Of a DNA stretch of 64,000 nt, positions 9,398 to 18,847 are shown piece after piece. Each line of letters starts with the position of its first letter. Positions within the stretch are counted from its first letter, which is position 1. Where the stretch lies: the NCBI RefSeq assembly GCF_022267315.1, contig NZ_JAIKLE010000001.1, positions 1-64,000 of the forward strand. Direction: 5' to 3'. The notes beneath the pieces were generated by a model that made no database searches, was not told the DNA's origin, and worked only from the letters and a program-made list of their open reading frames with translations. The DNA comes from Maribellus maritimus. Lineage in GTDB: Bacteria > Bacteroidota > Bacteroidia > Bacteroidales > Prolixibacteraceae. The translations under genes and the position numbers were made by a program.

Positions 9398-9427
9398 GAA
9401 TAGTAGAAAACACCAAAATTTCACCAC

Positions 9428-10792
9428 ATGCCCAATCATAAAATAAACCACAATTACAAGATTTTTATTGTTGAAGACAACGAATTGTATGCACAAGTTT
9501 TAAAAAAACAACTGGTTAGCGATCAGTTTCAGGTTAAAGTATTTTATAACGGTAAGGATTGTATCGCAAATTTAGGTGAAAATCCCCACATCATTACCCT
9601 CGACTATACTTTGCCCGATATGACAGGACAAGAAGTTTTAAAACAAATACAACAAAAACTACCTGACACACATGTTATTGTAATCTCAGCCCAGGAAAAT
9701 ATAACTACAGCAATAGAACTGATGAAGAGCGGTGCTTACGATTACATTATGAAAGCGCCCGATACCCGGGAAAAGCTGAGCAACATCATAAAAAACATAT
9801 ACAAAAGCGACCAACTGAAGAATGAAAATATTCTTCTAAAAGATGCGGTGAAAGAAAAATACAATTTCAGAAAATTGATTAAAGGAAACAGCCGCGAGAT
9901 CGATCATGTTTTTGACCTGATGGAAAAAGCCATTCAAACTCAAATATCCATTTCGGTTTCAGGTGAAACAGGCACAGGAAAGGAACTGGTGGCAAAAGGT
10001 ATTCATTATAATTCCAAAAGAAGCACAAAACCTTTTGTAGCGGTTAATGTTTCGGCTATTCCTGAAACCCTTGTTGAAAGTGAACTTTTTGGACACGAAA
10101 AAGGCGCATTTACAGGTGCTGATTTTAGAAAAATAGGAAAATTTGAACAGGCAAATTCAGGAACTTTGTTTCTTGATGAAATTGCCGACCTGGACATCGC
10201 CATTCAGGCTAAATTATTGCGGGTAATCCAGGAACGCGAAGTTACCCGCTTAGGAGGAAGCGAAACCATCCCCCTGGACGTTAGAATAATAACAGCTACC
10301 CATAAAAACCTTTCTAACCTGGTGGGCGAAGGACAATTCAGACAGGATTTGTATTACCGCCTGCTGGGGCTGCCCATTGAACTTCCCCCATTAAGAGAAC
10401 GCGGCAATGATATCATCCTCCTGGCAAAATATTTTGTTGATGAATTTTGCAAGGAAAATGAAATGGAGCCCAAATCGATTTCCGATGAAGCTAAAAAAAT
10501 GCTACTGACGTACCACTTTCCCGGAAATATAAGGGAATTAAAAGCTGTTATGGAGTTGGCCTGTGTAATGACAAACCGCGATGTTATAAAACCAAGTCAC
10601 TTAAATATGAATGTAGATGACAGCGTTCAGAATTTGCTCGCCAATGAAAAAACACTTGAAGAATATAACAATGAAATTATAAAACATTTTCTGAACAAAT
10701 ACAATCAAAATGTACGACTGGTAGCATCAAAACTTGGGATTGGAAAATCGACAATTTACAGAATGTTGCAAAAGAAAACACTGGTTACTTAA
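9428..10792 (+). CDS. Sigma-54-dependent response regulator (NtrC family)
   Basis: The 454-residue protein has three domains. A receiver (about 10-125) carries the phosphoacceptor Asp59 in TLDYTLPDMTG. An AAA+ domain (about 145-385) has Walker A GETGTGKE, the sigma-54 contact motif GAFTGA, Walker B TLFLDEIADL and an arginine-finger region. A C-terminal Fis-type helix-turn-helix (about 420-450) ends in RLVASKLGIGKSTIYRML. It should activate sigma-54 promoters when phosphorylated. No cognate kinase is adjacent. A sigma-54-like promoter is present 7 kb away at 17856; a direct link is only speculative. Confidence 0.93.
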   Translation: MPNHKINHNYKIFIVEDNELYAQVLKKQLVSDQFQVKVFYNGKDCIANLGENPHIITLDYTLPDMTGQEVLKQIQQKLPDTHVIVISAQENITTAIELMKSGAYDYIMKAPDTREKLSNIIKNIYKSDQLKNENILLKDAVKEKYNFRKLIKGNSREIDHVFDLMEKAIQTQISISVSGETGTGKELVAKGIHYNSKRSTKPFVAVNVSAIPETLVESELFGHEKGAFTGADFRKIGKFEQANSGTLFLDEIADLDIAIQAKLLRVIQEREVTRLGGSETIPLDVRIITATHKNLSNLVGEGQFRQDLYYRLLGLPIELPPLRERGNDIILLAKYFVDEFCKENEMEPKSISDEAKKMLLTYHFPGNIRELKAVMELACVMTNRDVIKPSHLNMNVDDSVQNLLANEKTLEEYNNEIIKHFLNKYNQNVRLVASKLGIGKSTIYRMLQKKTLVT

Positions 10793-16671: not shown

Positions 16672-17664
16672 TCAAATGTGGTCTACATATTCCTTTAAGC
16701 GTTCCTCCCGTTGAAGTTTCAATTTTTTACGAAGCCTGCCTCTGGAGACTTCAACACTTTTGGAATTGATATTTTGCAAACCGGCAATTTCCTTACTTGA
16801 AAGACCGAGACGAAGATAAGAACACAACTTTTCTTCTTTTGAGCTTAAATTCGGGTGTTTAAGTTTTAGCCTGTCGATGAAACCGGGGTGCAAATTCTCG
16901 AGTTGTTGAACAACCATTTCCCAATCGACTGGTGATATAGAAACACTTTCCAATGTTTTCAACAGAGCGGATGCTTTTTGATGAGCCTGCTGAGAAGTCC
17001 CCGAAACAATTTTTTTTAGCTGTTTCTGAACCAATGCCAAAAGTTCGTTTTTTTGCGAAAGCTGCAACAAAGAGGATATCACTTCACGCTCCTTGTTGTC
17101 CAATTTCGATTTCATCCGCCATTTTGCACGGTTTTCAAATTCTTTTCCTTCAGAAAGTTCCTGAATATGTCCCAACGCCCTTTTCAAACGAGTGATATCA
17201 TGTACAGACGCTCGAATTCCCAAATATCTTCCTTGTTTATTATATACTCCACGCACATTCACCGAACACCAGCAAAGTTGTTTATGGCGGGTCAAAATGC
17301 GAAACTCCAGCGATTGATTCATTATTAGTTGATCGAGCGAATCGGAAATAAAATGGTTAAATTTTTCCCTGTCTGGCTCATAAATCAATAAAACACTAAT
17401 ATTTTCAGAAGCAATCACCTGGTTTGCAGTAAAACCTGTTAAGTCCTGGCAAGAAGGAGAACAATACTTTATTTTTCCCGACGGATCGAGCCACAACTCC
17501 CAGCCAAAAGTAAAATCGGCCACAAACTGATAAAACTGCCGCTGGTTCTTTTCTTCCTCCAACGCAGCCAGGATTTCCTCCATCTCCATTTTTATTTCGG
17601 AAAGTTGCGTTTCAAAATCCTTTTCCTCCCTAAAACTATCGTCTCTGTTTTTTTGAATTACCAT
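16672..17664 (-). CDS. PAS-domain LuxR-type transcriptional regulator
   Basis: The 330-residue protein has an N-terminal coiled coil (about 15-45), a PAS domain with PAC segment (about 45-160: WELWLDPSGKIKYCSPSC, then FRILTRHKQLCWCSVNVRG and GIRASVHDIT), a helical linker, and a C-terminal LuxR/GerE-like helix-turn-helix (about 270-325: LSSKEEKLCSYLRLGLSS, then NINSKSVEVSRGRLRKKL). It has no receiver, so it probably senses a ligand or redox signal through the PAS domain. It is divergent from the NifX/Nif11-like cassette. The ATG at 17664 replaces a TTG one codon earlier. Confidence 0.82.
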   Translation of the reverse strand: MVIQKNRDDSFREEKDFETQLSEIKMEMEEILAALEEEKNQRQFYQFVADFTFGWELWLDPSGKIKYCSPSCQDLTGFTANQVIASENISVLLIYEPDREKFNHFISDSLDQLIMNQSLEFRILTRHKQLCWCSVNVRGVYNKQGRYLGIRASVHDITRLKRALGHIQELSEGKEFENRAKWRMKSKLDNKEREVISSLLQLSQKNELLALVQKQLKKIVSGTSQQAHQKASALLKTLESVSISPVDWEMVVQQLENLHPGFIDRLKLKHPNLSSKEEKLCSYLRLGLSSKEIAGLQNINSKSVEVSRGRLRKKLKLQREERLKEYVDHI

Positions 17665-17755
17665 CAAAATACTTTCTGAGATTATTCTCTAAAAATACTA
17701 CCAAAAGCCAGGAAAAGCAAACCACCAAATATCTGTTGAAAAAGAAATATAAAAA

Positions 17756-17855: not shown

Positions 17856-17870
17856 TGGCACCGGGTTTGT
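17856..17870 (+). promoter_or_regulatory. Sigma-54-like (-24/-12) promoter
   Basis: TGGCAC (17856-17861), five bases, then TTGT (17867-17870) matches the sigma-54 consensus TGGCAC-N5-TTGC except that the last base is T. Transcription would start about 17882, giving a leader of about 18 nt before the ATG at 17900. The neighbouring NifX/Nif11-like genes make a sigma-54 promoter reasonable. Confidence 0.5.
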
Positions 17871-17899
17871 CTGCTTTTTTGCATTCAAAAAATTAAAAT

Positions 17900-18301
17900 A
17901 TGAAAGTATTGCTACCTGTAAAAGATGATACAACGAGAAGGAACGAGGTTGCAGAGGGATTTCACAACCTCGGACATGTTTGTATTCACGACACTGATTT
18001 AAAAACGACGGAATGGATTTCGGCAAAAGAGATTAGCGAAACACCAGGCGGGCTGAACTCAGGGTTGTTGGAAAAAAATATTTTTTCCATCATAAGCATG
18101 AACATCACCCCCATGGTTTTGTCGATGTTTAACAGAAATGGCATAAACGTATTTAAAGCCCGGAGTTTTGATGTTGAAAAAAACATCAGGTTGTTTCAGG
18201 CAAGTGAACTGAAATCTTTTACAACAGAGGAATCAAGACTTATCTCTTCATCATCGTGTAATAGCAACTCATGCTCAAGCTGTGGTTCTACATGCAATTA
18301 A
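17900..18301 (+). CDS. NifX/NifB-like cofactor-binding domain protein, Cys-rich tail
   Basis: The 133-residue protein starts MKVLLPVKDD and continues VAEGFHNLGHVCIHDTDLKT, resembling the dinitrogenase Fe-Mo cofactor biosynthesis domain (NifX/NafY/NifB C-terminus), which carries iron-sulfur cofactor precursors. Later IISMNITPMVLSMFNRNGINVFKA fits the same fold. The C-terminus is unusual: a Ser/Asn/Cys-rich tail, SSSCNSNSCSSCGSTCN, with four Cys residues that could bind a metal cluster. No nitrogenase genes are in the window. The tail and family call should be confirmed by profile search. Confidence 0.6.
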   Translation: MKVLLPVKDDTTRRNEVAEGFHNLGHVCIHDTDLKTTEWISAKEISETPGGLNSGLLEKNIFSIISMNITPMVLSMFNRNGINVFKARSFDVEKNIRLFQASELKSFTTEESRLISSSSCNSNSCSSCGSTCN

Positions 18302-18312
18302 AATAAAAAAGT

Positions 18313-18534
18313 ATGGCACTTGGAAAAGCAATAAAATTTGTAAAACAGATAGGAGTTGATAATGAACTCCGTAAATCATGCTATAAATACAATTCGAAAG
18401 AAGAACTTCTAAAAAAGCTCGATTTCAACGAAGGCGAGTTTGAAGATGCCATTAATATGGAACTGGTAAAATGCCAGACATATGAACAGGCCGAACGTTT
18501 TCAGCAGCTAAAAATGTGGTTTTTAATCCTTTAA
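18313..18534 (+). CDS. Nif11-like small protein
   Basis: The 73-residue protein resembles the Nif11 domain: AIKFVKQIGVDNELRKSC, then SKEELLKKLDFNEGEFEDAI, then VKCQTYEQAERFQQLKMWFLIL. Nif11 proteins were first seen near nitrogen-fixation genes, and the domain also serves as a leader for ribosomal peptides. There is no double-Gly cleavage site or core peptide here, so the leader role is unlikely. It lies 11 bp after the NifX-like gene and 10 bp before a third small gene, so the three form an operon. Confidence 0.55.
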   Translation: MALGKAIKFVKQIGVDNELRKSCYKYNSKEELLKKLDFNEGEFEDAINMELVKCQTYEQAERFQQLKMWFLIL

Positions 18535-18544
18535 AATTAACAAT

Positions 18545-18847
18545 ATGAAATTTAGAAATCTTGAAGCCGTACGCGAGATTGTAAAAGAAGCTACAGGACT
18601 TGATATTACTTATGCCTATGATGATTTAGTCTTCCCTGAACATATGGCCTTTTTAATCCAGTTTGACGACAGCAACGATAAAAATTTATTTTGCTTTTTC
18701 CATGTCGATTGTAATCCTAATGATAAAAAGGATTTGTACAGCCGAATGACTGAGGTTTCTTCAGAAAATAATTATTCGCTTGTAAACAAGGGAATCTTTA
18801 ATCTTTCGCAAAAAGGAGAAGATGTCGAAATCAGATTTCGGCGTTAA
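18545..18847 (+). CDS. Small protein of unknown function, Nif11-linked cassette
   Basis: I do not recognise this 100-residue protein. It has an alternating strand-helix pattern (MKFRNLEAVREIVKEATGL, then FPEHMAFLIQFDD, then LFCFFHVDCNP) and no signal peptide or membrane segment, so it is a small cytoplasmic alpha/beta protein. It ends the three-gene cassette behind the sigma-54-like promoter at 17856. The only Cys residues are C70 and C77 or nearby, and no binding motif is evident. Confidence 0.7.
   Translation: MKFRNLEAVREIVKEATGLDITYAYDDLVFPEHMAFLIQFDDSNDKNLFCFFHVDCNPNDKKDLYSRMTEVSSENNYSLVNKGIFNLSQKGEDVEIRFRR

Follow-up and report, generated by a model that had tools for sequence, protein, structure and literature searches.

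What is a small cassette encoding NifX-like and Nif11-like proteins doing behind a promoter-like site of sigma-54 type, at a place in the Maribellus maritimus genome where no nitrogenase gene is in sight? The window analysed here, i.e. the whole stretch of 64,000 nucleotides, contains three such genes, hereafter P1, P2 and P3, and the original prediction considered them either a nif-linked gene set, with the 100-residue P3 as a possible new member, or a cassette serving another iron-sulfur or molybdenum task.

The layout itself was found as claimed: at 17856-18847 the motif TGGCAC-N5-TTGT is followed by three genes, all on the plus strand, with gaps of 11 bp between P1 and P2 and 10 bp between P2 and P3 (Table 1). 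The cassette is flanked on the left by a gene for a PAS-LuxR-type regulator, divergent from P1, and on the right by a convergent NADH dehydrogenase-like gene; a gene similar to that of the regulator occupies the same place in locus L007.

Table 1. Coordinates of the cassette and of the other elements located in this work. Positions without a locus handle are those of the window.
Feature	Position	Strand	Remarks
Sigma-54-type -24/-12 promoter-like site TGGCACCGGGTTTGT	17856-17870	+	Motif match; 18 of 18 same-genus loci
P1, 133 aa	17900-18301	+	Predicted NifX fold and C-terminal Cys tail (C120, C125, C128, C132)
P2, 73 aa	18313-18534	+	Small Nif11-type protein ending at the domain
P3, 100 aa	18545-18847	+	Unnamed nif-associated family, motif YAY[DE]DLVF
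PAS-LuxR-type regulator	16672-17667	-	
Sigma-54 activator	9427-10791	+	TIGR01817 match at 9809-10660; receiver-like start by eye
NifB of the same genome	L073:16722-18035		Cys-rich tail
NifX-like protein of the nif cluster	L073:18106-18513		Cys-rich tail
Palindrome ATGTTGTCGARCAT before nifH (example)	L047:1419-1432		Possible operator
135-150 aa protein	L131:9549-10001		HEPN-like by eye
135-150 aa protein	L151:9454-9858		HEPN-like by eye
135-150 aa protein	L094, about 10323		HEPN-like by eye
135-150 aa protein	L126, about 9548		HEPN-like by eye
80-86 aa unnamed protein	L131:10862-11101	+	
80-86 aa unnamed protein	L135:9121-9381	-	

Taken alone, the promoter-like site of the window is no more than chance would provide, as 0.27 matches are expected and at least one match occurred in 25 of 100 shuffles. 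The case for a sigma-54-type promoter comes from conservation: in all 18 same-genus loci TGGYAY-N5-TTGY precedes P1 by 43-51 nt, in the two forms TGGCAC and TGGTAT, versus 39 of 6948 (0.6%) background windows of 200 bp taken from the same loci. The sister genome G002 carries the -12 form TTTGC upstream of P1. Beyond the genus, after exclusion of two truncated loci (L089 and L105) from the 39 with P1 and of the 7 among the remaining 37 that were judged to repeat same-genus genomes, 30 further loci could be counted; 4 of them have the exact motif and 26 do not. All 18 same-genus loci preserve the order P1-P2-P3, whose conservation was a further point to be checked.

The absence of nif structural genes from the window is correct, and none was found on its whole contig; the description of the cassette as lacking nitrogenase nevertheless fails for the genome, since nifH, nifD, nifK, nifE, nifN and nifB are all present on another contig (C130). 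This cluster rules out the idea that the genome has no nitrogenase, and the search for nifHDK elsewhere that had been recommended thus gave a positive answer. The NifH match has an E-value of 2.8e-137, and the genes, all in the same orientation, are nifH, two P-II-like genes (so labelled by eye), nifD, nifK, nifE, nifN, nifB, a gene for a NifX-like protein and one for a 2Fe-2S ferredoxin. The products of nifD, nifK, nifE and nifB score above the NCBIfam cut-offs, that of nifN falls below both the nifN and the nifK cut-offs and is named from its position, and the NifX-like protein keeps the HFG motif and reaches 43.5 bits with TIGR02663, below the cut-off of 112. The regulators are also encoded: rpoN, above its profile cut-off, is on a third contig, and the best NifA match, on the nif contig, scores 492.7 bits, under the cut-off of 528.85. 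The window has a sigma-54 activator gene of its own (Table 1). In the sister genome G002, whose P1 is identical, cassette and nif cluster are genuinely unlinked: its single contig of 7.811 Mb has P1 at 1.199 Mb and nifH at 3.971 Mb. Of the two readings first offered, the nif-linked one is thereby strengthened, and there is little reason left to look to another iron-sulfur or molybdenum task, because a nif cluster sits in the same genome.

The comparison of fixing and non-fixing genomes, also suggested with the original prediction, points the same way at every depth considered, and its samples (relatives, order and phylum) share some genomes. Among 101 relatives P3 was found in 24 and nifH in 26; all 24 carriers of P3 have nifH, and the two nifH-positive relatives without P3 (G040 and G057) both have a strong nifD. 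Within the genus, P1, P3 and nifH occur together in 18 of 37 genomes and are all missing from the other 19, a match in 37 of 37. In the order sample of 393 genomes nifH matched at E<=1e-20 in 30, of which 26 also give a strong nifD match (E below 1e-190; the nifD search covered 53 chosen genomes) and four (G509, G602, G773 and G832) a weak one, with best E-values from 1.5e-33 to 4.8e-45; the genes of these four look nitrogenase-like. P3 occurs in 17 of the 26 genomes positive for both genes versus 1 of 367 others (0 of the 4 with weak nifD, 1 of the remaining 363), the lone exception, G729, being a draft 86% complete in which nifH and nifD were not found. At E<1e-20, 18 of the 26 and none of the four have P1; 22 of the 26 have P1 or P3, and the four weak-nifD genomes have neither. 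The 18 carriers of P3 in this sample are spread over ten families. Nine of the 26 are without P3 and four, including G543 and G790 of about 1 Mb, are without both proteins, so the cassette is no general requirement of nitrogenase. As a side observation, a count of nitrogen fixers by nifH alone comes out too high in this order, since G602, G773 and G832 pass the nifH cut-off with weak nifD matches.

In the phylum sample of 395 genomes, where strong nifH means a best E below 1e-100, 76 genomes have P3 and strong nifH, 4 only P3, 9 only strong nifH and 306 neither. The 4 with P3 only are drafts 77-85% complete, one of which, G454, has a nifD match of E 4.4e-143; G430, which is without P3, combines a strong nifD with a weak nifH match. 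Nearly all carriers of P3 in this sample belong to a single family, f59, which is probably Chlorobi, so that the 76 co-occurrences are not independent. In the order and phylum samples only the top candidates per genome were scored, and a few absences may therefore be false.

Adjacency provides a second line of evidence, and together with co-occurrence it bears out the suggestion that P3 adds a new member to the nif-linked gene sets. A profile scan with one genome per species, 84,980 species in all, returned 180 relatives of P3, the best 80 of which were examined. In the flanking DNA read around these best 80 of 180, at least one of nifH, nifD, nifK, nifE and nifN was found at 26 loci and any nif gene at 30, P1 at 39 and P2 at 37, and neither nif genes nor P1 or P2 at 21. 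The arrangements are diverse: P1-P2-P3 with nifH downstream (L091, L094, L096, L098, L102, L121); nifB, ferredoxin and small genes followed by P3 (L126, L128, L130, L131, L136, L150); P3 between nifK and nifE (L142, L151); and nifB, ferredoxin and P3 with P2-P1 on the opposite strand (L106 and others). Several nif clusters have P3 without P1 or P2. The cassette is also present in records titled Maribellus sediminis (L074) and Draconibacterium sediminis (L090). Relatives of P3 lie in or beside nif clusters of Bacteroidota, Desulfocapsa and Pontiella, group names being those of the record titles, which are loose for some metagenome-assembled genomes. In a Chlorobi locus (L135) P3 follows a NifO-like gene, whose product matches TIGR01616, 'nitrogenase-associated protein', with 130.6 bits (cut-off 109); a NifO-like gene is present in 15 of the best 80 of 180 loci.

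Two further small families were noticed around P3. A protein of 135-150 residues, HEPN-like by eye, is encoded in 16 of the best 80 of 180 loci, often directly beside P3; its copies in L131 and L151 have no Pfam match and the L131 copy no NCBIfam match, and it is another unnamed nif-linked family. A protein of 80-86 residues recurs in 15 of the same 80 loci, and its L131 copy has no match in Pfam, NCBIfam or PADLOC.

Are the cassette and the nif cluster under the same control? Upstream of nifH a sigma-54-type site, TGGCA(C/T) with a -12-like part, was found in 26 of 26 genomes when GG was held fixed and one other mismatch was allowed, a rule that also fits 8% of background 300-bp windows. Since the rule is so loose, the regular position of the site is the stronger point: it is 54-68 nt from the end of the sequence read, with one case at 87, and in most loci this sequence ends with ATG. 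Control is not alike in every respect, because a palindrome, ATGTTGTCGARCAT or a close variant, immediately precedes the -24 element of nifH in 13 of 18 genus loci and stands in front of P1 in none of 18; it is a candidate operator. TGT-N10-ACA, which we take to be the consensus of the upstream activator site of the sigma-54-dependent nif regulon, is absent from the 300 bp upstream of P1 in 18 of 18 loci. It is absent before nifH as well (25 of 26), so this consensus may not apply here. At 12 of 18 loci, the window's own not among them, the final 60 nt ahead of P1 contain the hexamer CCAAAC, which is also found before nifH in 7 of 18, the background being 3% of 60-nt windows; it is possibly a leader element shared by P1 and nifH.

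Presence and absence across genomes, adjacency in distant groups and conservation of the promoter within the genus make us very confident that the cassette belongs with nitrogenase. What its products do there is a more delicate matter, and it was approached through the proteins themselves.

For P1 (25 of the 39 P1 loci plus the window were aligned), the assignment of a NifX/NifB domain is sustained by its relatives and by its modelled fold and not by the window's protein itself, which matches PF02579 with E=0.13, below the Pfam cut-off, and is the only one of 26 members without a match at E<=0.1 (best 9e-7). The model, with a mean pLDDT of 84.4, points to a NifX-type alpha/beta fold: it aligns with 2qtd, a small NifX-domain protein (Z 13.7, 2.0 Å, 98 residues aligned), apo orange protein 2wfb (Z 12.4, 3.0 Å, 109), the NafY core 1p90 (Z 9.8, 2.6 Å, 96) and NifEN-bound NifX 9ian_F (Z 8.9, 3.0 Å, 95). 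The Cys-rich tail is a family trait, with Cys120, Cys125 and Cys128 in 26 of 26 members and Cys132 in 24, and the model has low confidence there (pLDDT about 45). NifB and the NifX-like protein of the nif cluster also end in Cys-rich tails, so that three NifX-domain proteins of this genome do so. None of the 26 members matches the NifX equivalog TIGR02663 at E<=0.01. In NifX, His35 is reported to coordinate NifB-co (PMC13128457). This residue falls in the HFG motif in the 9ian alignment, and at the corresponding column, carried to P1 through an alignment with TM1816, all 26 members have G, S, D, R or A. P1 thus combines a modelled NifX fold, without the known ligand, with a Cys tail, and a metal site elsewhere in the protein is possible.

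P3 was aligned from 31 of the best 80 of 180 loci plus the window. The profile check planned for the three proteins, which gave NifX and Nif11 types for the families of P1 and P2, assigned P3 to no family: at E<=0.1, any family of Pfam-A or NCBIfam that is hit at all is hit by a single one of the 32 members (best E 0.0028). Csm1, the sole Pfam hit of the window's P3, is weak and not found in relatives, and was rejected. Seven positions are invariant in the 32 members (L6, Y23, Y25, D27, L28, V29 and F30); these are hydrophobic, Tyr or Asp, and no Cys or His is invariant or nearly so. The model (mean pLDDT 89.8) has the order alpha-beta4-alpha-beta2; Foldseek gave no match at E<=0.001, and among PDB sequences nothing matched the P3 profile below E 0.37.

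P3 is most likely a small protein-protein adaptor or chaperone, and its partner would be a component of nitrogenase. Its conservation pattern suits the main rival explanation, in which the cassette protects or tunes nitrogenase, with P3 (and P2) binding NifH or NifDK in order to shield the enzyme or switch it off. Protective or regulatory partners that bind NifH or NifDK are known; P3 is accessory (17 of 26 nif-positive genomes) and it enters several nif clusters without P1 or P2, as such a binding protein without conserved metal ligands might. Its operon partner P1, by its predicted fold and Cys tail, argues for the handling of metalloclusters instead, and P3 has no named family in Pfam-A or NCBIfam, which also counts against protection or tuning, and we consider this explanation unlikely.

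P2 (24 of the 37 P2 loci plus the window) is a Nif11-type protein by virtue of its family, 19 of 25 members matching PF07862 at E<=0.1 (best 7.6e-8) and 11 of 25 matching TIGR03798 at E<=0.01; for the window's own P2 the claim does not hold, as it gives no match to PF07862. The sole Pfam hit of that protein, Calx-beta, is weak and not common to the relatives, and a PDB sequence search with the P2 profile gave no lead. Among the matches listed, the family is 72-90 residues long, most members having 72-81, and ends at the conserved domain; because no core peptide follows this domain, a role as precursor of a ribosomally made, modified peptide (RiPP) was dropped. P2 may be a partner of P1 and P3 used in part of the clade.

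A second rival takes P1 for a store of iron-sulfur or metal-sulfur material that would feed nitrogenase upon induction, helped by P2 and P3, by analogy with IssA, a member of the same wide protein family described in PMC5524996 as a store of Fe-S (thioferrate). Orange protein is among the closest folds of P1, and the MrpORP profile weakly matches 2 of 26 P1 members (best E 3.9e-4), as could be expected of such a store. The IssA tail, described as cationic with one Cys (PMC5524996), is unlike the four-Cys tail of P1, and a strict tie to nif genes would be unexpected for a general store; we regard this alternative as improbable. That P1-P3 are simple passengers of fixing lineages, joined to nif by shared ancestry, is hardly credible even though the counts ignore kinship and the phylum carriers are nearly all of f59, given presence and absence that agree throughout one genus, carriers in ten families of the order, and P3 in nif clusters of distant groups with differing arrangements.

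We therefore return to nitrogenase maturation. In the explanation that we favour, P1-P2-P3 would be an accessory nif-regulon operon that this genus encodes at a distance from the nif cluster, and RpoN with a NifA-type activator would switch it on together with that cluster. The most likely task of P1 is to carry or buffer a metal or an Fe-S unit during cofactor or cluster maturation, its four-Cys tail being used where NifX uses a single His. Against this stands the alignment-based observation that P1 is without the His ligand of NifX while the NifX-like protein of the nif cluster keeps HFG. As a whole, a nif-co-regulated accessory operon for nitrogenase maturation is the probable explanation; the specific part, with P1 as Cys-tailed carrier or buffer and P3 as adaptor in a cassette serving maturation, is held with slightly less assurance, a little above an even balance.

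A wider reading is offered tentatively and is, in our view, rather doubtful: anaerobic diazotrophs of several phyla (by record titles Bacteroidota, Chlorobi, Desulfobacterota and Kiritimatiellota) might use an assembly step absent from the Azotobacter model, in which P3 is a widespread and as yet unnamed nitrogenase-specific adaptor, joined in Bacteroidota by a Cys-tailed NifX-like carrier that delivers a cluster or metal unit other than that of NifX. A bolder form would make P3 a Crl-like factor acting on the transcription of nif genes. No sign of anti-phage defence was seen for six proteins in PADLOC at E<=0.1. The cassette is not named in the titles and beginnings of abstracts of the open-access literature searched, in which two motif strings of P3 occur in no paper, and the main text of a survey of nif genes in Bacteroidetes (PMC4356463) has no occurrence of nifX, Nif11, hypothetical, operon or sigma. 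The practical interest is in gene lists, because if the explanation is true, the P3 family and a NifX-like protein that has lost the known cluster ligand and gained a Cys tail extend the list for anaerobes. Moving nitrogen fixation to new hosts rests on lists from a few model organisms.

How does the cassette compare with known systems? Nitrogenase accessory proteins as such are a known kind, and P3 is a family without a profile in Pfam-A or NCBIfam. Its three best fold matches are to Crl, the sigma-S activator (6omf_J, Z 6.8, 3.0 Å, 82 residues; 3rpj_B, Z 6.8, 3.0 Å, 81; 4q11_B, Z 6.5, 3.4 Å, 84), nearly full length and all below the noise level of Z 7-8 that is typical of models without a clear match in this search, from whose rows a missing family is not thereby excluded. 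The likeness is limited further by an identity of 6-9%, by a fourth Crl entry, 2mz8, with Z 4.5, and by KA1 domains that tie (Z 6.2 and 6.1). P2 resembles Nif11 proteins and Nif11-type RiPP leaders in the PF07862 and TIGR03798 matches of its family; unlike the leaders, it is without a core peptide and is encoded in a nif-linked operon. The closest folds to P1 are MJ0327, MTH1175, TM1290 and orange protein, the first three of which also match the P1 profile by sequence. The archaeal and Thermotoga NifX-domain proteins and orange protein are chains of 104-124 residues aligned close to their ends, so that few residues remain for a P1-type tail. IssA does resemble P1 in having a C-terminal tail after the domain as well as in its wide family, but that tail is rich in glycine and aromatic residues (PMC5524996), and that of P1 is short and Cys-rich. 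With NifX and NafY, which carry NifB-co and FeMo-co, P1 shares the predicted fold, the PF02579 matches (25 of 26) and the link to nif genes; it differs from NifX in having neither a TIGR02663 match nor the His that binds NifB-co, and in the Cys tail that it adds.
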